A DNA stretch of 34,679 bases from the NCBI GenBank assembly GCA_945876945.1, contig CAMCQE010000027.1:1-34679 (forward strand), written 5' to 3'. Shown here in pieces: positions 4,801-23,471 of this stretch (position 1 is its first letter; each line of letters begins with the position of its first letter). Source of the stretch: Klebsiella pneumoniae (lineage in GTDB: Bacteria > Pseudomonadota > Gammaproteobacteria > Ga0077536). The notes beneath the pieces were generated by a model. That model was not told the DNA's origin and searched no databases. It saw nothing but the letters and a program-made list of their open reading frames with translations. Position numbers and translations under genes: made by a program.

Positions 4801-5187
4801 TTAGTCGTATTTGAGATATTTGAAGCGAGGATCTTCAGGCGTACCTTCCAGCGCGCTGTGTTCATCCGCCGCCGGCTGCCACATCAAGACCTCTTCGATC
4901 TTCTGCGCAAGCTCGAAGTCTTTATCCGTAATGCCCTTGGCGGCGTGGTTCTGCAATTTCACCGTGACAAACGCATAGGACACATTGAGGTCCGGGTGAT
5001 GCCACGCGGCTTCGGCCAGATGCGCGATCGTGTTGACCGCCATCAGCGTGCCTTTCCAGCCGGACGTCTTGTAGGTGCGCCGAATCCAGCCGTCCTTCAA
5101 AGACCATTTGGGCAGCAGCGCCGCGAGCTTGGCGGTGGTTTCCGCCTCGTCGTATACCTTCTCCGAAATTTTTTCACGCCAGGCCAT
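4801..5187 (-). CDS. phhB: Pterin-4a-carbinolamine dehydratase
   Basis: A 128-residue protein of the PCD/DCoH family. The signature AAWHHPDLNVSY around residue 60 carries the paired histidines of the active site. The enzyme dehydrates 4a-hydroxytetrahydropterin in phenylalanine hydroxylation, and some family members assist pterin cofactor synthesis or recycling. It starts 14 bases after the mfnB-like gene and has a clear AGGAG seven bases before its ATG. No phenylalanine hydroxylase gene is nearby. A PCD homologue sits among methanopterin genes in some methylotrophs, so a role with methanopterin or molybdopterin is plausible, but that is inference from the neighbours. Confidence 0.9.
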   Translation of the reverse strand: MAWREKISEKVYDEAETTAKLAALLPKWSLKDGWIRRTYKTSGWKGTLMAVNTIAHLAEAAWHHPDLNVSYAFVTVKLQNHAAKGITDKDFELAQKIEEVLMWQPAADEHSALEGTPEDPRFKYLKYD

Positions 5188-5200
5188 GGGCTACTCCTGT

Positions 5201-5917
5201 TTAAACTGCGGTTACGAGCGGCGAGGTGACGGGCGCCACCTCGCGATTGAATTCCTGCATGAGCGCGCGGACTGCGGTCTGCTCTACCGCGGCGGTCCGC
5301 GCCTGTGCCGCGCACAGCGCGCTGCGAAAGCCGAGATAATCGGCGCCAAGCGCACGCAAGGGCATGACATCCGCGAGCGCGAGCTTACCCGCCAAGCCAC
5401 AGAGCAAGCCGTGAGCTTTAACGCTAGCGACAAAAGCCGCGAGCGCGACCGCGCTCATCAGGCCACCCAAACTTGGCCCCGCTTTCTCGGCGGTATCCAG
5501 CATCAAGCCCGCCACGCCCGACTCTGCGAGACGCGCAATGTCGTCCGCGCCGGGCGGCGCTTCGGCGAAGCACACGCCGATCACGCGGACACCCCCGGCG
5601 CAAGCTTCGCGCAGTACTTCAATCATCTCGGGCGACACCGCGCTGGCATACAGACCGACCTTGGCGTAATGGGCGCCGGCATCAGTCACCGCCCGCGCCC
5701 GCGCCGGAATAACCGCAGGGCTTAGCCAATGGTCACCGATGGTGGCGCTAACGGTATGGCTGCTGCCAAACGTCGCCGCCACCTCGGTAATGGTGGCCAG
5801 CGCTACTGCGCCCAGCGCGCCGGCGTCGGGTTCCTTCAAATCAATCCAGGGCACGCTGCAAGCGGCAACAATCTGCGCCTCGTCCAGATTGCGCACGCTG
5901 GCGAGGACTGCGGTCAT
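5201..5917 (-). CDS. mfnB: (5-formylfuran-3-yl)methyl phosphate synthase, MfnB family
   Basis: A 238-residue protein when begun at the ATG at 5917, where it overlaps the upstream DUF447 gene by four bases (ATGA). MfnB (formerly DUF556) condenses two glyceraldehyde-3-phosphates to make the furan ring of methanofuran. The N-terminal MTAVLASVRNLDEAQ and WIDLKEPDAGALGAV fit the family; Lys28 in IDLKEP corresponds to the Schiff-base lysine of the archaeal enzyme. Later, YAKVGLYA and LMLDTAEKAG follow the TIM-barrel strands. In bacteria this gene occurs in methylotrophs that oxidise formaldehyde through tetrahydromethanopterin and methanofuran. No fae, mch, mtd or fhc gene lies in the window, so the rest of the pathway must be elsewhere. 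Confidence 0.88.
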   Translation of the reverse strand: MTAVLASVRNLDEAQIVAACSVPWIDLKEPDAGALGAVALATITEVAATFGSSHTVSATIGDHWLSPAVIPARARAVTDAGAHYAKVGLYASAVSPEMIEVLREACAGGVRVIGVCFAEAPPGADDIARLAESGVAGLMLDTAEKAGPSLGGLMSAVALAAFVASVKAHGLLCGLAGKLALADVMPLRALGADYLGFRSALCAAQARTAAVEQTAVRALMQEFNREVAPVTSPLVTAV

Positions 5918-6495
5918 GCGCCGGCGACAGGCGCGTGGGCGCCATGTCGAGGATGTTGGGCTACGGCCTCCCGCAGCCAAGCCCAGGCCACACGCTCGTG
6001 TTCACCCGCGGTCTTGTCGATCGCAATCTGCAGGTAACGCATCTCGCTCGCAACCTGCGCGGGTTCGAGCCAGTCCAGACGAGAAATAAGAATGGCCCCT
6101 TCAAGCACCGCCGCCTGAGCGCGATTGAAGCCGGTAAACGCGGCATGGTTCACCCGCGCCAGCACGCGGCAAAGGAATTGGGGACGCTCGGGATGTTCAA
6201 TCGTGCGCTCGACTGCCAGTTCCCAATGCGCCAGCGCCCCGGCCAGCCTCGGCACGGGGCTGAGGGTCGAGGGCAGCACCGGCCAGTCACGACGGCCGGT
6301 CAGACAACCGGCAAAGACGCGGGCATCCTCGGTGAAATTGAGTACGGCCACCGGGCGCGCGCGCAGGTTCTCCAGCGTCGTCGACGGCACAAACGGCGCC
6401 AGCACAACGCGCTCGTCCTGCTCGCGATAGCCCAGCGGGGTAATGTGCGCGCCGCCATCGGCCGCCAGCGTGGTGATGATCGCTTCGCGGATCAT
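5914..6495 (-). CDS. DUF447 family protein, methanopterin-associated
   Basis: A 193-residue protein starting MIREAIITTLAADGGAHITPLG, with LAPFVPSTTLENL and AVLNFTEDARVFAGCLTGR following. This is the pattern of the DUF447 family, split beta-barrel proteins related to flavin-binding pyridoxamine-oxidase-like folds and common in methanogens and in methanopterin-using methylotrophs. Its biochemical role is not known to me. It is the first gene of a three-gene minus-strand operon with mfnB and the pterin dehydratase, which points to methanofuran or methanopterin metabolism. Its promoter must lie in the 279-base gap shared with pqqA. Confidence 0.8.
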   Translation of the reverse strand: MIREAIITTLAADGGAHITPLGYREQDERVVLAPFVPSTTLENLRARPVAVLNFTEDARVFAGCLTGRRDWPVLPSTLSPVPRLAGALAHWELAVERTIEHPERPQFLCRVLARVNHAAFTGFNRAQAAVLEGAILISRLDWLEPAQVASEMRYLQIAIDKTAGEHERVAWAWLREAVAQHPRHGAHAPVAGA

Positions 6496-6549
6496 GGCCA
6501 GACACTCATCAGGATTGGCGGAAGCATTTGGCTCATATCAACCACCTTG

Positions 6550-6567
6550 CTGGTCTTATAAAACCAG
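6550..6567. promoter_or_regulatory. Near-perfect palindrome, possible activator or operator site
   Basis: CTGGTCTTATAAAACCAG is an 18-base inverted repeat with one mismatched pair. It lies in the gap between the DUF447 operon and pqqA, about 130 to 145 bases upstream of the predicted pqqA transcription start, which is the usual distance for a sigma-54 activator site. It also sits about 55 bases upstream of the DUF447 start codon, so it could instead control that operon. Confidence 0.4.
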
Positions 6568-6622
6568 ATTGAATCCCTAAACATGCCGTCAATTGCCGGC
6601 GCGCAGACGGCGACAGGAGAAA

Positions 6623-6639
6623 CCGCGATTTAATCGCGG
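6623..6639. promoter_or_regulatory. Perfect palindrome upstream of pqqA promoter
   Basis: CCGCGATTTAATCGCGG has two perfectly complementary 8-base arms around one central base. It ends 30 bases before the candidate sigma-54 promoter of pqqA. The symmetry and position suggest a binding site for a dimeric regulator, but no regulator can be named from sequence alone. I did not notice a second copy in the window. Confidence 0.45.
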
Positions 6640-6668
6640 AATAACGGGACAGACCGGCAGTCCGCGAG

Positions 6669-6684
6669 TGGCACGCATGGTGCT
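6669..6684 (+). promoter_or_regulatory. Candidate sigma-54 promoter of pqqA
   Basis: TGGCACG-CATG-GTGCT matches the sigma-54 consensus TGGCACG-N4-TTGCW, with all seven -24 bases identical and one mismatch in the -12 element. GG at 6670-6671 and GC at 6682-6683 are separated by exactly ten bases, as required. Transcription would begin near 6695, giving an RNA leader of about 80 bases before pqqA. A sigma-54 activator is encoded at 20621-22009, but whether it acts here is unknown. Confidence 0.6.
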
Positions 6685-6774
6685 TTAGCTTCTTGAACAC
6701 CGCGGCCTCATTTTCGCAGTGTGGGTGGCGCGCCTCAACCGGCGCGCGGTCAATCTCAAACGAGGAGATATCAA

Positions 6775-6849
6775 ATGGCTTGGCAGACCCCGTCTTTCAG
6801 CGACGTGCGTTTCGGCTTCGAAGTCACGATGTACATCAACAACCGTTGA
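6775..6849 (+). CDS. pqqA: PQQ precursor peptide PqqA
   Basis: A 24-residue peptide beginning MAWQTPSF and ending YINNR. It is the ribosomally made substrate whose glutamate and tyrosine are fused and excised to become PQQ. Glu16 and Tyr20 are in the required E-x-x-x-Y spacing (EVTMY). A strong GAGGAG lies about eight bases before the ATG. It is followed by a stem-loop (6866-6892) and then pqqC, so pqqA can be expressed in excess of the enzymes. pqqB, which usually comes next, is missing from this position. Confidence 0.97.
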   Translation: MAWQTPSFSDVRFGFEVTMYINNR

Positions 6850-6924: not shown

Positions 6925-7680
6925 GTGCCAGAGTACTCAATCCGCCGCCGCGCTACCGATGCTCCCGTCTGGTCGCGAGAGGAATTCGAGCGGCAGCTGC
7001 GCGGCAAAGAGCGCTACTACCATATCCATCACCCCTTCCACATTCAGATGAACGAAGGGGGTCTCAGCCGTGAAGCCGTGCAGGGCTGGGTGACTAATCG
7101 TTTCTATTACCAGCAGTGCATTCCTATCAAAGATGCCGCCGTGCTGGCCAACTGCGAGGACCGCGACAGCCGCCGTCTCTGGATCCAGCGCATTCTCGAC
7201 CACGACGGCCTGGCGGGGGATGAAGGCGGCATCGAAGCCTGGCTGCAGCTTGGCGAAGCGGTGGGTCTGGACCGCGCCTATCTTGAGAGCGGTGACGGTG
7301 TGCTTCCCGGCGTGCGCTTCGCCGTTGATGCCTACGTCAACTTCGCCCGCCGCGCCACGTTTGAAGAAGCCGCGTGCTCCTCGCTCACCGAACTCTTCGC
7401 GCCCACCATTCACCAGCGTCGGCTGGATAACTGGCCACAGATTTATCCCTGGATCGATGAGCGCGGTTATCGCTACTTCCGCAGACGTCTGAGCGAAGCG
7501 CGGCGTGACGTCGAACACGGGCTGACGGTCTCGCTGGAGTACTTCAAAACGCGCAGCGATCAGGACTACGCGCTCAGCATCCTGCAGTTCAAACTGAACG
7601 TGCTGTGGACGATGCTGGATGCCATGTGGATGGCGTACATTGAGCACAAGCCCCCTTTCTTCAGTTGCCCCCATGAGTGA
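6925..7680 (+). CDS. pqqC: Pyrroloquinoline-quinone synthase PqqC
   Basis: A 251-residue PqqC of normal length. PqqC is a cofactor-free oxidase that performs the last ring closure and eight-electron oxidation giving PQQ. Family motifs are [42 protein letters not shown] and [13 protein letters not shown]. The start is GTG (6925) with no clear ribosome binding site; the homology begins a few residues later and there is no better start. It overlaps pqqD by eight bases. Low initiation at this GTG, with the upstream hairpin, would keep enzyme levels below the PqqA peptide. Confidence 0.97.
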
Positions 7681-7960
7681 TTTCAGTCTCAGCCTCGACA
7701 CCGTCCCCCGCATCTCGCCGATGTTCCGCTTCCAGTGGGAAGAGGCGCAGGAAAGCCATGTGCTGCTCTACCCCGAGGGCATGGTCAAGCTGTCGGGCAG
7801 CGCCGGGGAAATTCTCGGTCTCGTCGATGGCAAAACCTCGGTGGGCGGCATCATCGACGCGCTGAAGCTCAAATTCCCGGGCGCCCCCCTGGACAACGAC
7901 GTCATCAACTTTCTGGAAACCGCATATGGACAGGGCTGGCTCCGCACCGTTAACGCCTAG
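7673..7960 (+). CDS. pqqD: PqqA-binding peptide chaperone PqqD
   Basis: A 95-residue PqqD when started at the ATG at 7673 ([16 protein letters not shown]). PqqD binds PqqA and presents it to the radical SAM enzyme PqqE. The pattern [26 protein letters not shown] (quoted in pieces: [24 protein letters not shown]) and the following [16 protein letters not shown] is diagnostic, as is the C-terminal [11 protein letters not shown]. It overlaps pqqC by eight bases and pqqE by 35 bases, so the three are translated as a unit. Confidence 0.96.
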
Positions 7961-9065
7961 CAAGCCGCTGTGGCTGCTGGCGGAACTGACCTATCGCTGT
8001 CCGCTGCAGTGTCCCTACTGTTCCAACCCGCTCGATATCGCCAAATACAAGGACGAACTCAGCACCGAACAGTGGATTAGCGTGCTGCAGCAGGCGCGCA
8101 AGATGGGCGCGGCGCAGCTGGGCTTCTCAGGCGGGGAGCCGCTGGTGCGGCAAGATTTAGAGATCTTGATCGCCGAGGCGCGCCGGCTGGGCTACTACAG
8201 CAATCTCATCACCTCCGGCGTCGGCATGAACGAAGATCGGGTCGCCGCTTTCAAGGAGGCGGGGCTCGATCACATTCAAATCAGCTTTCAGGCCAGCGAC
8301 GAGGAACTGAACAACTATCTCGGCGGCTCGGATTCCTTCCGCCATAAATACGAGATGGCACGGGTGGTCAAAAAACACGACTACCCGATGGTCCTCAACA
8401 TCGTGATCCACCGCCAGAACATCGACCAGATCGAAGACATCATCAAAATGACGATCGATCTGCAGGCGGATTACGTCGAGCTTGCCAGCACCCAGTATTA
8501 CGGCTGGTCGAAACTGAACGAGGCTGGGCTTTTGCCCACCCGCGAGCAACTCGCCCGCGCCGAACGCATCGCCCACGACTACCAGGACCGCATGAAGGGG
8601 AAAATGAAAATCCTCTACGTGGTGCCGGACTACTACGAAACGCGCCCCAAGGCCTGCATGAACGGCTGGGGCTCGATCTTCCTCACCATCGCGCCGGACG
8701 GCTCGGCGCTGCCCTGCCATGCCGCACGCCAGCTGCCCGGCATGAGCTTTCCCAACGTCAAAGACACTTCCATCGCAAGCATCTGGAACGAGTCGAACGC
8801 GTTTATGCGCTTTCGCGGCGATGACTGGATGCAGGAGCCCTGCAGGAGTTGCCCGGAGAAGGGCAAGGATTTCGGCGGCTGTCGGTGCCAGGCCTTCATG
8901 CTGACCGGAGACGCCACGAACGCCGATCCGGTGTGCGGCAAGTCAGACCATCACGCGGCGCTGGTGGCCGAAGTTAACCGCCTGACGGCGCTGTCGCTCG
9001 CAGAGGTGAAAGCCAAACCTCTCGTCTTCCGCAATCTCAAAAATTCGCGCGAACTGGTCCCCTAA
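7926..9065 (+). CDS. pqqE: PqqA peptide cyclase PqqE (radical SAM)
   Basis: A 379-residue radical SAM-SPASM enzyme. It joins the glutamate and tyrosine of PqqA by a carbon-carbon bond, the first committed step of PQQ synthesis. The radical SAM triad is CPLQCPYC near residue 21, and [13 protein letters not shown] is the SAM-contacting motif near residue 62. The C-terminal SPASM region has many cysteines, including [20 protein letters not shown], for two auxiliary iron-sulfur clusters. The ATG lies 35 bases inside pqqD; no later start precedes [13 protein letters not shown], so this overlap appears genuine. The gene ends the operon and converges with the CNB-EAL gene 21 bases away. Confidence 0.97.
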
Positions 9066-12955: not shown

Positions 12956-14227
12956 TTACTTCAGCAGCGCGGCATTGAAGCCGACGGCCTGAGTGCTCGC
13001 GAGATAGGCTTCCATCACGCGGGTAGGGTCTTCGAGCAGATGGTCCTTCCACTTCCCGAGGCGGGTCTTGGTCTGGATCAGGCCGCGCAGCACGCCCACG
13101 TGTTGCGTCATGCCAAGGCTCGTCGCGCCCACCAGCACATCACCGTCGAACTGGAGATTCAAATAGCGATAACGCTCGCGGTTGAGCAACTCGGCGCTGT
13201 CGCCGCCTTCCTTGCCCATCCACAGGCCGAACGAACTGGAGATAAGCCCCAGCGTGTCCAGCACGTTCATGTTCACGCTGCCCCGATGCACCGCGCCCTT
13301 CTGACCCACCATATTGCGGGCGGCCAGTTGCGCGTGCTCGGTAGCCGTCGGCTGAATAGCCTGCACCGCAGACTCTCCGGTAGAGAAGTCCCGGCCTTCG
13401 GCGACGTCGCCGGCGGCAAAGATATCGGGGTCATTGGTCTGCATGTGGCGATTGATCAGAATCCCCTGCTTGATCTCGATGCCGGTGCCTTCAAGAAAGC
13501 CGATGTTCGGTCGCACGCCGGTCGCCGAGACGATGAGGTCGACTTCCAGCGTTTGCCCGGTGCTTAAGGCCGCTTGCAGCGCGTGCTGCGTGCCCTTGGT
13601 GATGCCGGTGACGCGGGTCGAGGTATGCACCGTCACGCCGCGCGACTGGCACCAGTCTTTAATCATGTTGCCGGCGGTGTCGTTCATCATGCGCGGCACC
13701 ATCCGGTCTTCCATTTCGACGACCGTCAGTTCGGCGCCGCTCTGGGCCAGGGCTTCCAGAATGATGCAACCGATAAAGCCGGCCCCCATCAACAGCACCT
13801 TGGCGCCCGGCACCGCACGAGAGGCGATATTGCGCGCATCGGCCAGGGTCCAGCAGGAGAAGATCCCCGGCAGGTCCATGCCAGGAATCGGCGGCGCCAC
13901 CGGGCGCGAACCCGTGGCCAGCAGGAGTTTGTCGTAAGCCAGCGTTTCACCGCCGGCGAGGCTCACCTGTTTCTTGCTACGGTCAATCGCGGTCACCCGG
14001 TCCTGCCGAACGGTGATGTTCTGCTTGGCGAAATGATCGGCGGTTTTGCGCAGATGCGTGCCCTCTTCCGCAATTTGCTTGATCAGAAAATAGGGCAAGG
14101 CCATGCGCGAATAAGGGGCTTCGGGTTCTTCGCCCACCAGCACGATTTCGGCATCGGGCTGAAGTTTACGGAGGGTTTCAACCGCGACCACGCCGGCTGG
14201 GCCGGCGCCTACAACGATGTGCTTCAT
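12956..14227 (-). CDS. aorC: Aldehyde oxidoreductase FAD/NAD(P)-binding subunit (AorC-like)
   Basis: A 423-residue FAD-dependent pyridine-nucleotide-disulfide reductase. The ATG at 14227 is chosen because AGGAG lies seven bases upstream and the FAD-binding HIVVGAGPAGVVAVE begins at once; the longer frame to 14341 adds non-homologous sequence. A second Rossmann motif, LLMGAGFIGCIILEAL, binds NAD(H), and FAAGDVAEG is the FAD-contact signature. There is no redox-active CxxxxC disulfide, so it resembles NADH oxidase-like or ferredoxin-reductase-like proteins. In Aromatoleum the equivalent subunit passes electrons from the polyferredoxin to NAD. The gene follows the large subunit by about 70 bases. 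Confidence 0.9.
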   Translation of the reverse strand: MKHIVVGAGPAGVVAVETLRKLQPDAEIVLVGEEPEAPYSRMALPYFLIKQIAEEGTHLRKTADHFAKQNITVRQDRVTAIDRSKKQVSLAGGETLAYDKLLLATGSRPVAPPIPGMDLPGIFSCWTLADARNIASRAVPGAKVLLMGAGFIGCIILEALAQSGAELTVVEMEDRMVPRMMNDTAGNMIKDWCQSRGVTVHTSTRVTGITKGTQHALQAALSTGQTLEVDLIVSATGVRPNIGFLEGTGIEIKQGILINRHMQTNDPDIFAAGDVAEGRDFSTGESAVQAIQPTATEHAQLAARNMVGQKGAVHRGSVNMNVLDTLGLISSSFGLWMGKEGGDSAELLNRERYRYLNLQFDGDVLVGATSLGMTQHVGVLRGLIQTKTRLGKWKDHLLEDPTRVMEAYLASTQAVGFNAALLK

Positions 14228-14297
14228 AGAGGCTTCTCCTGCCGGTCGCGGCTGGCGACCGGTTGGCATTGAGTGTCTGACTACAACGAATGAACGA

Positions 14298-16148
14298 TCA
14301 CAGGCCGAGGCGCGAGAGCGTTTCTGCGGTAGGGACGCCATCGGTCGTCCAACCGCGAATTTCGTAGTAGTGGGGCAACATCTTGTGCAACTCGTTGACC
14401 TTGCCTTTGGCGGGGCCGGTCTTGGCGGCGTCCTTCAGCAGGCGCTTGGGCAGCGTGTCGTCCGCCGCCGTCAGGCCAGCGTCCAGATTGAACTGACGTT
14501 CGAGATTCCAGATGCGCTCGCCCGCTTCCAGCATTTTCTCGGTCGTCCAGTTCCCTTCGCAGGCGGCGTCCACCTGCGGGGCGATGTCTTCCAGCGTCCA
14601 GGCGAAAGTGGTGAACACGCACAGGCCGGAAGAGTCGACCGCCGCGGTCGCGTCCTGGAAGGCCTTCACCAGCTCGGGCTTGCCTTCGGTCTCCAACGGG
14701 TCGGTCTTCACCGGCACGCCAAGAATTTCGGAAGACACCGTATAGCTACGGAGATGGCAGGCGCCACGGTTAGAGGTGGCATAGGTCAGGCCCATGCCCT
14801 GAATGCCGCGCGGGTCGTAGGCCGGAAACTCCTGCCCCTTCACCGTCATGGACAGATCCGGATGACCGTATTTCTCGGTCAGGCGCTTCGAGCCCAGCGC
14901 GAGTTCGCGGCCAAAGCCTTCGCCTTTCGCGACCAGTTCCGCCGCCTTGGTCAAGGCCTCGGCAGAACCAAACTTCATTTCGATGCCGCCGGTGGTCTCG
15001 GTCGTGATCGCGCCGATTTCGTACAACTCCATCGCCGCCGCAACGGTCGCCCCGAAGGAAATGGGGTCGAAGCCGTCTTCGTTGCAGAGGAAGTTGGCGT
15101 AGGTCAGCGCGTCGAGATCGTCCACACCCGTGTCTGAACCCAGCGCCCAGGCCGCTTCGTACTCCAGGCCGCCATTGGCGCCCATGTATTCCGGCTTGTT
15201 GACGATGGTGTAGTGCTTGGGGTCGATGGTGGAGATGCGGCCGCAGGCGATAGTGCAGCTGAAGCACGCGGCATTGGTGGTGAGATTGGCTTTGCCGTCG
15301 CTCTCGCGCGGCACCAGCATCGCCTCCGCCCCGATGCGATTGGCCCCTTCAAACTGGACTTCTCGCATGTTGCGGGTGGGCATCGCGCCCACTTCGTTAA
15401 TGACGTTCATCAGCACCTGGGTGCCGAGCTTGGGCAGGCCTTCGCCGGTGACCGGGTTGCCCGCCAGCACGGCCTTGCCGGCCTGCGTCGCCTTGAAGAA
15501 GGCCTTGATGTCGCGCACGTTGCCAACACCCTTGGTGCCGCGAATGGCCACCGCCTTCAGATTCTTGGACGCCATCACGGTGCCCACGCCGGACCGGCCA
15601 GCGGCACGGTGCAGGTCGTTCATCACGCCCGAGTACAAGCAGCCCTGCTCGGCCGAACGGCCGACGCAGGCGATGCGCAGCTGCGGATCCTGATAGGTGG
15701 CGTGCAAAGCATGGTCAGTCGCCCAGGCCGAGGTGCCCCAGAGGTGGTCGGCGGGGCAGAGTTCGGCGTGTTCGTTTTCGATGTATAGGTAGACCGGCGT
15801 GGGCGACCGACCTTCAAAAATCACCATATCCCAGCCGGCCATTTTCATTTCATTACCGATGAACCCGCCCGAGTTGGAGCAGGCAATCGCGCCGGTCAGC
15901 GGGCTTTTGGTAATGACGGAGTAGCGACCGCCGGTGGAAGCCATCGTGCCCGTCAGCGGGCCGGTGGCCATGATGAGTTTATTGCCGGGCGAGAGCGCGT
16001 CCACTTTGGGATCGATCTCGGCGGCGAGGTATTTGGTGGCCAGACCGCGCTGACCGAGATACAGATTGGCCCACTCCATATTGAGTGGCTCCGGGGTGCA
16101 GGTGCCGTTCGTGAGGTCGACCCGCAGGATTTTTCTGGTCCATGCCAT
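14298..16148 (-). CDS. aorB: Tungsten-containing aldehyde ferredoxin oxidoreductase, large subunit (AorB-like)
   Basis: A 616-residue member of the aldehyde:ferredoxin oxidoreductase family, which oxidise aldehydes to carboxylic acids with a tungsten bis-pterin cofactor. RAAGRSGVGTVMASKNLKAV near residue 181 and DPRGIQGMGLTYATSNRGAC near residue 445 are the two pterin-binding motifs. Cys295, Cys298 and Cys302 (CFSCTIAC) with Cys510 are placed to bind one 4Fe-4S cluster, as in the archaeal enzyme. No signal peptide is present, so it is cytoplasmic. Between the polyferredoxin and FAD genes it forms an AorABC-type complex, which in Aromatoleum oxidises many aldehydes and reduces NAD. No tungstate transporter is visible in the window. 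Molybdenum cannot be excluded as the metal. Confidence 0.96.
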   Translation of the reverse strand: MAWTRKILRVDLTNGTCTPEPLNMEWANLYLGQRGLATKYLAAEIDPKVDALSPGNKLIMATGPLTGTMASTGGRYSVITKSPLTGAIACSNSGGFIGNEMKMAGWDMVIFEGRSPTPVYLYIENEHAELCPADHLWGTSAWATDHALHATYQDPQLRIACVGRSAEQGCLYSGVMNDLHRAAGRSGVGTVMASKNLKAVAIRGTKGVGNVRDIKAFFKATQAGKAVLAGNPVTGEGLPKLGTQVLMNVINEVGAMPTRNMREVQFEGANRIGAEAMLVPRESDGKANLTTNAACFSCTIACGRISTIDPKHYTIVNKPEYMGANGGLEYEAAWALGSDTGVDDLDALTYANFLCNEDGFDPISFGATVAAAMELYEIGAITTETTGGIEMKFGSAEALTKAAELVAKGEGFGRELALGSKRLTEKYGHPDLSMTVKGQEFPAYDPRGIQGMGLTYATSNRGACHLRSYTVSSEILGVPVKTDPLETEGKPELVKAFQDATAAVDSSGLCVFTTFAWTLEDIAPQVDAACEGNWTTEKMLEAGERIWNLERQFNLDAGLTAADDTLPKRLLKDAAKTGPAKGKVNELHKMLPHYYEIRGWTTDGVPTAETLSRLGL

Positions 16149-16163
16149 GCGTGCTGCCTCCGC

Positions 16164-16631
16164 TTAGCTCTTGGGGATCGACTGGCTGGCGTGCGCCTTC
16201 ATGCGGGCGAGGCCGGTGTGGTCGGCATCGACGTAGGTGATGGCGCCGGTCGGGCAAGCCGTGGCACAGGCCGGGTCGCCGCCGCACAAATCGCACTTGG
16301 CGACCTTGCCGGTATCGGAGTTGTAATTCACGGTGCCGAAGGGGCAGGCAATCGTGCAGACCTTGCAGCCGACGCAAACGTCTTCGATGACTTCTTTGGC
16401 ACCGGTTTGCGGGTTGATGACGATGGCCTCAACCGGGCAAGCATGGAGACACCAGGCTTCCGAACACTGCGAGCAGGTGTACGGTGCGAAGCGCCCTTCA
16501 TCGTGGAAGGTAAACACTTTGATACGGGACTTGCTGGGATTGAACACGGCTTCGTTCTCGTAAGAACAGGCCATTTCACATTGAAGGCAGCCGGTGCAAA
16601 GCTCGGCCTCTAGCTGTAACGCTTTGAGCAT
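16164..16631 (-). CDS. aorA: Polyferredoxin subunit of aldehyde oxidoreductase (AorA-like)
   Basis: A 155-residue ferredoxin with 16 cysteines in four sets: residues 12-15-18-22, 53-56-61-65, 86-89-92-96 and 113-116-122-126. This allows four 4Fe-4S clusters, as in the AorA subunit of the Aromatoleum enzyme and in HycB/DmsB-type electron transfer subunits. It would carry electrons from the tungsten subunit to the FAD subunit. A GGGAG lies eight bases before its ATG. It is the first gene of the minus-strand operon, so the promoter should be in 16632-16937. Confidence 0.95.
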   Translation of the reverse strand: MLKALQLEAELCTGCLQCEMACSYENEAVFNPSKSRIKVFTFHDEGRFAPYTCSQCSEAWCLHACPVEAIVINPQTGAKEVIEDVCVGCKVCTIACPFGTVNYNSDTGKVAKCDLCGGDPACATACPTGAITYVDADHTGLARMKAHASQSIPKS

Positions 16632-16937
16632 GATTGAAACTCCCGGGATCGTTGATGAGAAAAGTCAGCCTCCGTGCGCGGTCCGTACGCTGGCGGGTGA
16701 CCGAAGTCCCCGGGCGCCAGACGGCGTCATCATGAGTGCTGTGGCCGCGCCATCATCAAGGCTTGCGGCGAGTCGAACACTAGCGAGATTCAGCACAAAA
16801 GGCGAGACTCCCGGCCGCCTTTCGTAGCGAGGCTTGCCCGCCTGCCGCCGCAGTCTGTTGGACTGGGCTCGTCGTCGGAACTTGCTCGCTAGCCTTGGGT
16901 CCTGAAACCACTGACTTCACACGCGGAGAACTTCCCG
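16632..16937. other. Divergent intergenic region between aor operon and PQQ accessory genes
   Basis: About 306 bases with no convincing gene. It separates the divergent starts of the polyferredoxin gene and the substrate-binding-like gene and must contain both promoters. I looked for -24/-12 elements on both strands and found none as good as the one before pqqA; no clear -35/-10 pair or strong palindrome was seen either. Confidence 0.6.
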
Positions 16938-20620: not shown

Positions 20621-22009
20621 TCAGCCGCCGTCGATCCCGTGCGCCTTCATGCGATAGCGCATCGCCATGCGGGTCACGCCGAGCTGGCGCGCAGCCTCGG
20701 ACACATTGTGCCCGGTGCGCTTCAAGGCCATTTCAATCAGCGCCTTCTCGGCGGCGTCGAGCGTCATGCCGGCTAGCGCCGGCGCGACCTCGACACGCGA
20801 CGCTGCCCCGGGCAGCATGAGGTCGCTGGCGCTCAAAGCCGCGCCACCGGCCAGCAGCAGCGCCCGCTCAACGACGTGTTTCAGTTCGCGGATATTGCCG
20901 GGCCAGGGATAAGCCCTTAAGGCCGCGCGGGCGTCATCGCTGATCGCACATGCTGGCAGCCCGTAGCGACGGCGCGTTTGGCGTGCGAAAAATTCGGCGA
21001 GCGTGATTACATCGTCGTCCCGCTCCCGCAAGGGCGCCAGTTTGAGCATGAAGACATTGAGACGGTAGTAGAGGTCGGCGCGCAGCGTGCCATCGGCCAG
21101 CATGCGATCGACATCCCGGTTGGTCGCGGCGATAAACCAGGCGTCGGTATGGCGCTCGTGGCTGCTGCCTACCCGACGCAGCGAGCGCCGTTCCAGCACC
21201 GCCAGCAGTTTGGCCTGCAATTCGAGCGGTAACTCGCCAATTTCATCGAGAAACACCACGCCATCTTCTGCCGCCTCGATCAGCCCCGTGCGTTCGCTGG
21301 TGGCGTTAGTGAACGCGCCTTTCACATGACCGAACAACTCCGCTTCGATCAGTTCCTTGGGCAAGGCGGCGCAATCGACGTGTACAAACGGCCGCTCCGC
21401 GCGGCGCGAATGCTGATGCAGCACCCGGGCGGCAACATCTTTGCCTGTACCGGTTTCACCCACGATGAGCACCGTGGGGGCCTCGCCTTCGGCCGCGCCG
21501 ATCAGCGTCGCAATGCGTTCGATCTGGGTTCGCAACTGCTGCGCGGCCGATGACCCGCCGACGATCTCTAGCGGGTCTTGCGTGGTCGTTTCGCGCGCCC
21601 TTGAGTATTCCAGTGCCAGCGACACGCGTTGCTGCGCCAGCACCTTTTCCACGTTGAGCAGCAACTCATCGAGGTCAATCGGCTTGCGGAGGTAATCGGA
21701 GGCGCCGAGTTTCATCGCGCTGACCGCATCTTCGAGTTCGCCGTAAGCGCTCATCGCGAGCACTGCCGCCGTCGCCCCCAGCACGCCGCGAAAGCGCGCC
21801 AGAAAATCGAGGCCGGAGCCGTCGGGCAAGCGCATGTCCAGCAACAACAGGTCGGCGGCCTCGGCCTGCCACGACGCCTCCGCCTCGCGCAGGGTCGGCG
21901 CCACCCGCACCGCATAGCCAGCCTTCTCCAGGCGGCGCGCGATGGCGCGGGCGAACAAGGCTTCGTCTTCCACCACCAGCACGCGCGCGGCCTTGTCAGA
22001 GGATTTCAT
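20621..22009 (-). CDS. Sigma-54-dependent response regulator (NtrC family)
   Basis: A 462-residue activator when begun at the ATG at 22009 (MKSSDKAARVLVVEDE). The frame is open for 95 more codons, but these overlap the kinase gene and are not homologous. Residues 9-120 are a receiver with Asp58 and Lys109. The AAA+ domain has Walker A GETGTGKD at 184, the sigma-54 contact loop at 231 and Walker B VVFLDE at 251. That loop reads GAFTNA where most activators have GAFTGA. The last 45 residues form a Fis-type helix-turn-helix (VSEAARQLGVTRMAMRYRMK). It overlaps the kinase gene by 14 bases. Its targets are unknown; the pqqA promoter in this window is a candidate. Confidence 0.95.
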   Translation of the reverse strand: MKSSDKAARVLVVEDEALFARAIARRLEKAGYAVRVAPTLREAEASWQAEAADLLLLDMRLPDGSGLDFLARFRGVLGATAAVLAMSAYGELEDAVSAMKLGASDYLRKPIDLDELLLNVEKVLAQQRVSLALEYSRARETTTQDPLEIVGGSSAAQQLRTQIERIATLIGAAEGEAPTVLIVGETGTGKDVAARVLHQHSRRAERPFVHVDCAALPKELIEAELFGHVKGAFTNATSERTGLIEAAEDGVVFLDEIGELPLELQAKLLAVLERRSLRRVGSSHERHTDAWFIAATNRDVDRMLADGTLRADLYYRLNVFMLKLAPLRERDDDVITLAEFFARQTRRRYGLPACAISDDARAALRAYPWPGNIRELKHVVERALLLAGGAALSASDLMLPGAASRVEVAPALAGMTLDAAEKALIEMALKRTGHNVSEAARQLGVTRMAMRYRMKAHGIDGG

Positions 22010-23471
22010 TGGCGTTTTCCAGATGTCGGGGGGCGGTGATGGTGACGCGAGTGCCGCGGCTATCCACGACTGAGAATTCCAGCGTCCAGCCGTGGGTCTT
22101 GCAGACTTTGAACGCGACGGGGATGCCAAGACCAGTGCCGAAGCGCTTGGTGCTGGGGCCTGGCTCAAGGCCCGCCGGTTCGGGGATAAAAGGAATACCG
22201 CCGGCCTCGTCCTCAATTTCAAAAATGACCTGCGTGTCGCTGGCACGCAAGCCGGCGCGTAACACCGCGCCCTTGGCTGAAGCCTCAAGCGCATTGCCCA
22301 GCAGCCCGTATAAGGCCTGCTCCATCAAATCAGAATCAACCGCCACCCACGCGCCCTCCTGCCAGGGCCGGCGTTCCAGACGCACTTCCCGCTCGCGAGC
22401 GCGCGGCGCGATGAGGTCGAGAACGGCCGCAAACACGCGCGCGGCGGGCATGACCGTCAGACGCGGTTTGAGCGGGTGCAGATACGACACCAGCGCGCTC
22501 ACCCAGCGCCCGAGGCGGTCTACGGTGGCCACGATTTCATTCGCAATTTCGCGCGACTCGGCGGGGTCGTCGACGTGCTCCAGCACCTGCGCGCTGGCGC
22601 GAATCGCGGCCAGTGGATTGCGGATGTTGTGGGCCACCACCGGCACCAGGGCGCCCAGCGCCGCCTGACGTTCGGATTCCACCAGCGCATCGCGACTCAA
22701 GACCAGATCGCCGGCCAGTCGATTCACGCTCTCGGCCAGCAGCGCCACTTCGGTCACACCCGCCACCGGCAGACGCCGGGAGAGTTCCCCATCGCTCATG
22801 CGCTCGGTGCCTTGGATAATCGCCTGCATGGGACGGACAAAGCCGAGGGTCAGACTGCGGCGCGAGAAGTACAGCACCGCCAGCGCCAGCAGCATCGGCA
22901 CCGGCAGCAGGTAAGGCGCGTAGCGGGTCCAGCGTCCAATCCATTCCGCCTGCGCGGCAAGTTCGGTTTCGACGAGGCGCTGGAAGCTCAGACAGGCCTC
23001 ATCAAAACCGCCGAGCAGCGAGGGTTCGCGGCGGGCGTCAAGCGCGCGCAGGCGCACAATCCGGTTCAGAAAATAAGGATCATCCAGCGAGGCGTGGAGG
23101 TCGGCCTGCAAGCGCCCATAGGCTTCCTGCATGTGCTGCACCGCGTAGTCTTCGGCCCGCGAGGCAGACTGCCGCCGCAGCACGTTGAAGCCTTCCTGAA
23201 TGCGCCGGTAGTAACGACCGTGGATGTCTTCTGCCGCCGGATCGTTGCGCAATCGCGCCAGCGCGACTTCCTGAATTTGCTGAAATAAAACACCGCGTGT
23301 TTCCTGCATGGTGTTGGTGAGCGCGTTCAGACGCAACGACTCGGTGGATGTCTCTTGCCAGAAATAGGCCCACAAGCCGCCCATTGCACCGGTCACGACC
23401 ACCAGCGCAATGAAGGCTAGTTCATAAACGAGCAAAACCCGGCGCAGCGATTGGGGGGCGAATGAAGGCAT
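21996..23471 (-). CDS. Sensor histidine kinase
   Basis: A 491-residue inner membrane kinase. Membrane spans lie at about residues 12-36 and 185-203, with a mostly helical periplasmic sensor of about 150 residues between them, then a HAMP domain. The phosphorylation motif is VAHNIRNPLAAIRA with His281. The ATPase domain shows the N box (LLGNALEAS, Asn393), G1 (DEAGGI) and G2 (FGTGLGIPVA). It will phosphorylate the sigma-54 regulator encoded by the overlapping downstream gene. The signal sensed is unknown. A TATAAT lies just before the ATG and there is no ribosome binding site, so the message may be leaderless. Confidence 0.95.
   Translation of the reverse strand: MPSFAPQSLRRVLLVYELAFIALVVVTGAMGGLWAYFWQETSTESLRLNALTNTMQETRGVLFQQIQEVALARLRNDPAAEDIHGRYYRRIQEGFNVLRRQSASRAEDYAVQHMQEAYGRLQADLHASLDDPYFLNRIVRLRALDARREPSLLGGFDEACLSFQRLVETELAAQAEWIGRWTRYAPYLLPVPMLLALAVLYFSRRSLTLGFVRPMQAIIQGTERMSDGELSRRLPVAGVTEVALLAESVNRLAGDLVLSRDALVESERQAALGALVPVVAHNIRNPLAAIRASAQVLEHVDDPAESREIANEIVATVDRLGRWVSALVSYLHPLKPRLTVMPAARVFAAVLDLIAPRAREREVRLERRPWQEGAWVAVDSDLMEQALYGLLGNALEASAKGAVLRAGLRASDTQVIFEIEDEAGGIPFIPEPAGLEPGPSTKRFGTGLGIPVAFKVCKTHGWTLEFSVVDSRGTRVTITAPRHLENANEIL

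Follow-up and report, generated by a model that had tools for sequence, protein, structure and literature searches.

The window, i.e., the whole stretch of 34,679 nucleotides that was analysed, contains a pqq locus in which the gene for the precursor peptide PqqA is followed by pqqC, pqqD and pqqE, while a three-gene operon headed by a DUF447 gene runs in the opposite direction. The genes and the features recognised between the two transcription units are the following:

4801-5187: pterin dehydratase gene, in the divergent DUF447 operon
5201-5980: 4-HFC-P synthase gene, in the same divergent operon
5914-6495, minus strand: DUF447 gene, divergent from pqqA, first in the order DUF447 - 4-HFC-P synthase - pterin dehydratase
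6529-6544, no strand assigned: operator copy 1, TGGCTCATATCAACCA, consensus TGGTTN6AACCA, absent from the initial annotation
6551-6566, no strand assigned: operator copy 2, TGGTCTTATAAAACCA, TGGTTN6AACCA, core of the 18-bp palindrome at 6550-6567
6623-6639, no strand assigned: perfect 17-bp palindrome, not conserved and probably incidental
6669-6684, plus strand: predicted sigma-54 promoter, from consensus fit and a strict spacing kept in relatives
6695, plus strand: inferred transcription start, 12 nt past the C of the -12 element, from the spacing to the box and the 5′-terminal hairpin
6697-6722, plus strand: leader hairpin I, beginning 2 nt past the inferred start, with covariation among family members
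6728-6747, plus strand: leader hairpin II, weaker, with a register that shifts between genera
6775-6849, plus strand: pqqA, coding the 24-residue PQQ precursor peptide (TIGR02107, 44.2 bits against a cut-off of 20; PF08042)
6925-7680, plus strand: pqqC (TIGR02111, 353 bits)
7673-7960, plus strand: pqqD, from its position and its similarity among relatives
7926-9065, plus strand: pqqE (TIGR02109, 575.7 bits)

The sequence TGGCACGCATGGTGCT, at 6669-6684 of the plus strand and 106 nt 5′ of the pqqA start codon (6775), has the form of a sigma-54 box: GG at 6670-6671 and GC at 6682-6683 are separated by N10, and the -24/-12 elements read TGGCACG-CATG-GTGCT. The initial annotation had proposed a sigma-54 promoter from this GG-N10-GC spacing, with one mismatch in the -12 box, and scoring bears it out; indeed, 11 of the 12 scored positions fit the consensus TGGCACGN4TTGCW, and only the first T of the -12 element deviates. 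A score of at least 11 is reached once in the window when both strands are scanned, by the pqqA box alone, and when the 250-nt region upstream of pqqA was Markov-shuffled 200 times, no shuffle equalled it. The exact pattern TGGCACN6TGCT occurs at 16 places in the same genome, versus nine for the reversed pattern; four of the other places precede pilA, glnK(-amtB), glnA and a glutamine-synthetase-like gene (gene identities assigned by eye), which are familiar sigma-54 targets. The genome also encodes rpoN (PF04552, E 5.9e-69).

Conservation of the box was followed in a family sample of 36 genomes, which is also every genome examined of the order and in which pqqC was found in 25. All 18 aligned family pqqA upstreams carry TGGC[AG][CT]N6TGC, 105-124 nt before the start codon, and in this 18-sequence alignment most of the intergenic DNA around the box drifts. 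A further genome (locus L017, genome G015), read separately, has the box too, so that it is present in 19 of the 19 family genomes whose pqqA operon was readable; in this last genome the PqqA sequence LVFEVTMY replaces FGFEVTMY, yet the box and one operator copy are retained. No box was found in the remaining six genomes with pqqC: five, all from a single genus, show no pqqA next to pqqC; the sixth, G035, does have pqqA.

The box also recurs far outside the family, in line with the control of pqqA by sigma-54 that had been proposed from the window. When 369 genomes of the class were scanned with a pattern kept loose on purpose, TGGCN8TGC at 83-143 nt before the PqqA motif, 22 genomes matched, while the reversed-pattern control matched none; 19 of the matched genomes lie outside the family, nine of them with two boxed pqqA genes, and nearly all sites read TGGCA[CT]N6TGC[AT], though the scan did not demand it. 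A perfect box, TGGCACGTCCTTTGCT, is located 143 nt before a pqqA variant on plasmid pTs485 of Candidatus Thiodictyon syntrophicum, in this case without the tandem operator described below.

The region upstream of the box contains two palindromes that the initial annotation had put forward as activator sites, and they fared differently. The longer one, CTGGTCTTATAAAACCAG, is an 18-bp near-palindrome at 6550-6567, symmetric at 16 of its 18 positions; it is real and kept in relatives, but it turned out to be the second of two tandem TGGTTN6AACCA sites. The two copies are spaced 22 bp, and their centres lie about 137 and 159 nt 5′ of the inferred start, i.e., within the distance of about 80-200 nt upstream taken for activator sites of sigma-54 promoters; within the family, copy 1 is better conserved than copy 2. 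The palindrome at 6623-6639 is indeed perfect over 17 bp, but it has no counterpart in relatives and was rejected as an activator site: three of its eight pairs are broken in the nearest genome, the sister species G014, and six perfect palindromes with arms of at least 8 occur in the window, against 0-7 in shuffles, a chance-like frequency. It is probably an incidental, chance match.

A tandem operator was counted when the two sites together had at most four mismatches in 20 fixed positions, which is the case for 0.14% of Markov shuffles. It is present before 29 of 40 non-redundant boxed pqqA genes versus 1 of 58 unboxed ones, a comparison from which 23 near-duplicate rows were removed, including the window's own (which has a 60-mer in common with L028), and copies of re-fetched regions were excluded. 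The single unboxed pqqA with an operator is a second, tandem pqqA whose upstream DNA is common with the boxed copy; the other 11 of the 40 boxed upstreams have a weak tandem operator or none. Outside the family, it accompanies the box at 18 of 28 places (12 of 19 genomes), and in the wider pqqA set the spacing between the two sites shows a sharp peak at 22 bp. A search of the 36 family genomes with the tandem pattern matched 11 genomes, with ten places at pqqA and one (G034) elsewhere. In 494.5 kb comprising the window, regulator neighbourhoods and other stretches of its own genome, all six tandem matches are upstream of a pqqA; none was found in the stretches around ten PQQ-dehydrogenase-like loci of this genome (six above cut-off) or around its other sigma-54 activators.

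These data bear on two alternative readings of the intergenic region. According to the first, the match to the box is due to chance, and an ordinary sigma-70 promoter drives pqqA; most Methylococcaceae and Pseudomonas pqqA upstreams examined are without such a box, and thus pqqA does not need one everywhere. However, the fixed spacing of the box in 19 of 19 family genomes, its recurrence in other families with zero control matches and its linkage to the operator make this reading extremely improbable. According to the second, the box alone belongs to pqqA, and the tandem palindromes serve the divergent DUF447/pterin operon as repressor or activator sites; the sites are indeed 34-71 nt upstream of the DUF447 start, and the divergent DUF447 gene is found in nearly all family loci. 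On the other side, in locus L015 the DUF447 gene is gone and the pterin dehydratase gene is divergent instead, while the operator is kept, one mismatch from consensus; in other families many lone pqqA genes with unrelated neighbours keep it as well. Since the operator is retained in both situations, it follows pqqA, and its role as an operator of the divergent operon alone is disfavoured; we consider this second reading very unlikely. The preferred interpretation remains that box and tandem operator together belong to pqqA.

The leader transcript provides a further element. In 12 family leaders, 94% of the cells of hairpin I are paired and four of its seven pairs have changed on both sides; the covariation score of the two-helix structure is above all 500 shuffles and collapses when the structure is slid. 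Over the 34 nt that begin at the inferred start, 41 leaders of the wider set, left after the removal of 13 near-duplicate rows, have a mean folding energy of -9.1 kcal/mol, against -5.5 for shuffles and -5.4 to -7.2 at neighbouring offsets. No match to the pqqA leader was obtained in Rfam. As far as can be read from the sequences, the location of a hairpin at the inferred 5′ end supports a start at 6695, and such a 5′-terminal hairpin could protect a short, abundant mRNA.

The initial annotation had also pointed to a sigma-54 response regulator and its kinase, encoded in the same window, as the possible controlling pair:

20621-22009, minus strand: candidate activator, a sigma-54 response regulator with receiver, AAA+ domain with GAFTNA, and Fis-type HTH
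21996-23471, minus strand: candidate sensor histidine kinase with HAMP, HisKA with AHNIRNPLA, and HATPase

The regulator matches PF00072, PF00158 and PF02954, all above cut-off, whereas neither it nor the kinase reaches a named NCBIfam equivalog (AtoC, NtrC, ZraR, PrsR, NorR), the best being AtoC with 351 of 714 bits. Orthologs of the regulator are present in 23 of the 36 family genomes, namely in all 19 boxed genomes, whereas the six with pqqC in which no box was found have no ortholog, so that its presence or absence matches that of the box in 25 of 25 pqqC genomes, a co-occurrence confounded by descent, as both are missing in the same two genera; the other four (G009, G020, G026, G027) have the regulator with no pqqC found, which speaks against a strict link. 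In seven genomes, including the window's own, regulator and pqqC are on one contig, about 8-23 kb apart.

Adjacency in other lineages points to the same pair. Kinase and/or regulator orthologs adjoin a lone boxed pqqA in six genomes from five families (G016, G165, G208, G043, G105, G234). In G016 (locus L184, 2484-2556, minus strand) this lone pqqA is a second copy, which has its own box and tandem operator and diverges from the kinase gene; a lone pqqA divergent from the kinase ortholog is likewise found in G043, G208, G105 and G234, the G043 contig having two pqqA in a row and ending inside the kinase-regulator pair, while in G165 the lone pqqA follows the pair downstream, on the same strand. 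The regulator orthologs (22 rows) group in one clade with support 100/100, to the exclusion of the other tested sigma-54 activators, in a tree where the placement of other long branches is unsure. Most sigma-54 activators read GAFTGA; 21 of the 22 clade rows instead have GAFT[NSH]A, a pattern not found in L256, and the clade HTH is near-constant, NVSEAARxLG[IV]TRM. All 23 aligned kinase orthologs share the H-box AHN[IV]RNPLA, whose N occupies the position of an E found in many kinases. A search of plasmids retrieved no kinase orthologs, and its sole regulator match was a 39.7% relative in Candidatus Manganitrophus. The co-occurrence, the orthologs beside lone boxed pqqA genes and the clade test all speak for the pair proposed at the outset, and on this comparative evidence the window's kinase and response regulator are the best candidates for the control of pqqA.

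A different activator, e.g., one encoded elsewhere in the genome, might occupy the tandem sites of a genuine sigma-54 promoter. The genome has eight strong Sigma54_activat matches, besides two weak ones that resemble other AAA proteins, and different activators seem to have been recruited in other organisms: in G336 (locus L253, 6529-9340) an AcoR-like activator with GAFTGA (by eye) is located directly upstream of a boxed pqqA that is without the TGGTT operator, and in Variovorax boronicumulans (locus L279, 2476-5000) an annotated sigma-54-dependent Fis regulator, also AcoR-like, is found just upstream of a pqqA with a weak box and no TGGTT operator. Thus, as G336 illustrates, the box does not always imply a regulator of the window type, and these two cases indicate that sigma-54 control of pqqA may have arisen separately with different activators. 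As regards the window, however, two of the other seven activators are without GAFTGA and the rest are, by eye, PilR, NtrC, FlrA, FlrC and one beside a luciferase-type monooxygenase; only the window's kinase-regulator pair recurs beside lone pqqA genes with the same operator. An activator other than the window's response regulator is therefore unlikely.

We regard as likely the overall model in which pqqA has a sigma-54 promoter with a tandem operator, controlled by the kinase-regulator pair of the window. In this model, sigma-54 RNA polymerase would be held closed at 6669-6684; upon a signal, the membrane kinase (21996-23471) would phosphorylate the response regulator (20621-22009), dimers of which would bind the two TGGTTN6AACCA sites, 22 bp or two helical turns apart, and DNA looping from the operator would open the promoter. 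PqqA, the peptide from which PQQ is made and of which one molecule is consumed per PQQ, would thereby be supplied in a strictly on/off manner. The pqqCDE genes are probably cotranscribed behind pqqA from the sigma-54 promoter; a lone extra pqqA, in some cases divergent from the kinase gene, would be driven by this operator-promoter combination in other lineages as well. More broadly, we find it rather likely that a dedicated two-component sigma-54 system switches pqqA, including its orphan copies, across several gammaproteobacterial families and thereby acts as a master switch of quinoprotein metabolism at the substrate level, and that sigma-54 control of pqqA was reached more than once with different activators.

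The proposed arrangement resembles the NtrC-family systems (NtrBC, AtoSC, ZraSR, PilSR), which likewise combine a membrane kinase, a receiver-AAA+-Fis regulator and tandem palindromes more than 100 bp upstream of a -24/-12 promoter. Unlike these, the pair of the window reaches no equivalog cut-off and belongs to the GAFT[NSH]A clade, with pqqA as its putative target and TGGTTN6AACCA as the operator. The kind of regulation is thus known, while the target pqqA is unexpected and the distribution is wide. To our knowledge, how PQQ supply is matched to quinoprotein enzymes is poorly understood beyond a few model species; the conserved operator, promoter and regulator pair represent a concrete, testable regulon, for which the TGGTTN6AACCA pair together with the -24/-12 box can be used as a bioinformatic marker, and a separately switched peptide supply is a possible reason for the lone pqqA found in many genomes.

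No description of sigma-54 control of pqqA was found in the open literature searched, which covers few subscription journals, and the term "pqq" is absent from the main text of a recent sigma-54 regulon survey (PMC12316311). The title of Singh et al. 2017, cited in PMC12826043, indicates that sigma-54 controls exaA, a PQQ enzyme gene, in Azospirillum brasilense; as in the window, sigma-54 would act on a quinoprotein alcohol oxidation system, but the target is a dehydrogenase gene and the regulator is of LuxR type. In the same strain, according to the available part of PMC12826043, a pqqA:lacZ fusion depended on the ECF sigma factor RpoE6.

Orphan pqqA genes are described in Methylobacterium/Methylorubrum extorquens, where the supply of PqqA is said to be rate-determining (PMC11317620, available portion), and five pqqA genes are reported in Methylovorus (Ge 2015, as cited in PMC11317620). 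These extra copies are similar to those found here in being apart from the operon and differently regulated, with the difference that the accessible sections of PMC11317620 mention no sigma-54 promoter or operator. For Pseudomonas, excerpts of the published work indicate that the PQQ genes are induced along with alcohol oxidation (PMC12997753) and that the pqqA transcript is altered in cbrB and crcZ mutants (PMC3480352); the Pseudomonas pqqA upstreams examined differ from that of the window in being below the box threshold and without the operator. A Burkholderia insect-symbiosis island combines PQQ genes with DUF447, 4-HFC-P synthase and a sigma-54-dependent Fis regulator, and its pqqA is called a fragment of about 100 bp in the part of the article available (PMC9088363).

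Two minor observations concern the region beyond the pqq genes. Next to PQQ-associated genes, the window encodes at 12956-16631 an aldehyde ferredoxin oxidoreductase together with a ferredoxin and a PadH-like oxidoreductase. In genome G001 (locus L181, position 13371) a perfect TGGTTN6AACCA site, without a box, is flanked by a ferredoxin gene and a PQQ-associated ABC gene, in a place that is the apparent counterpart of 16632-16937 of the window.
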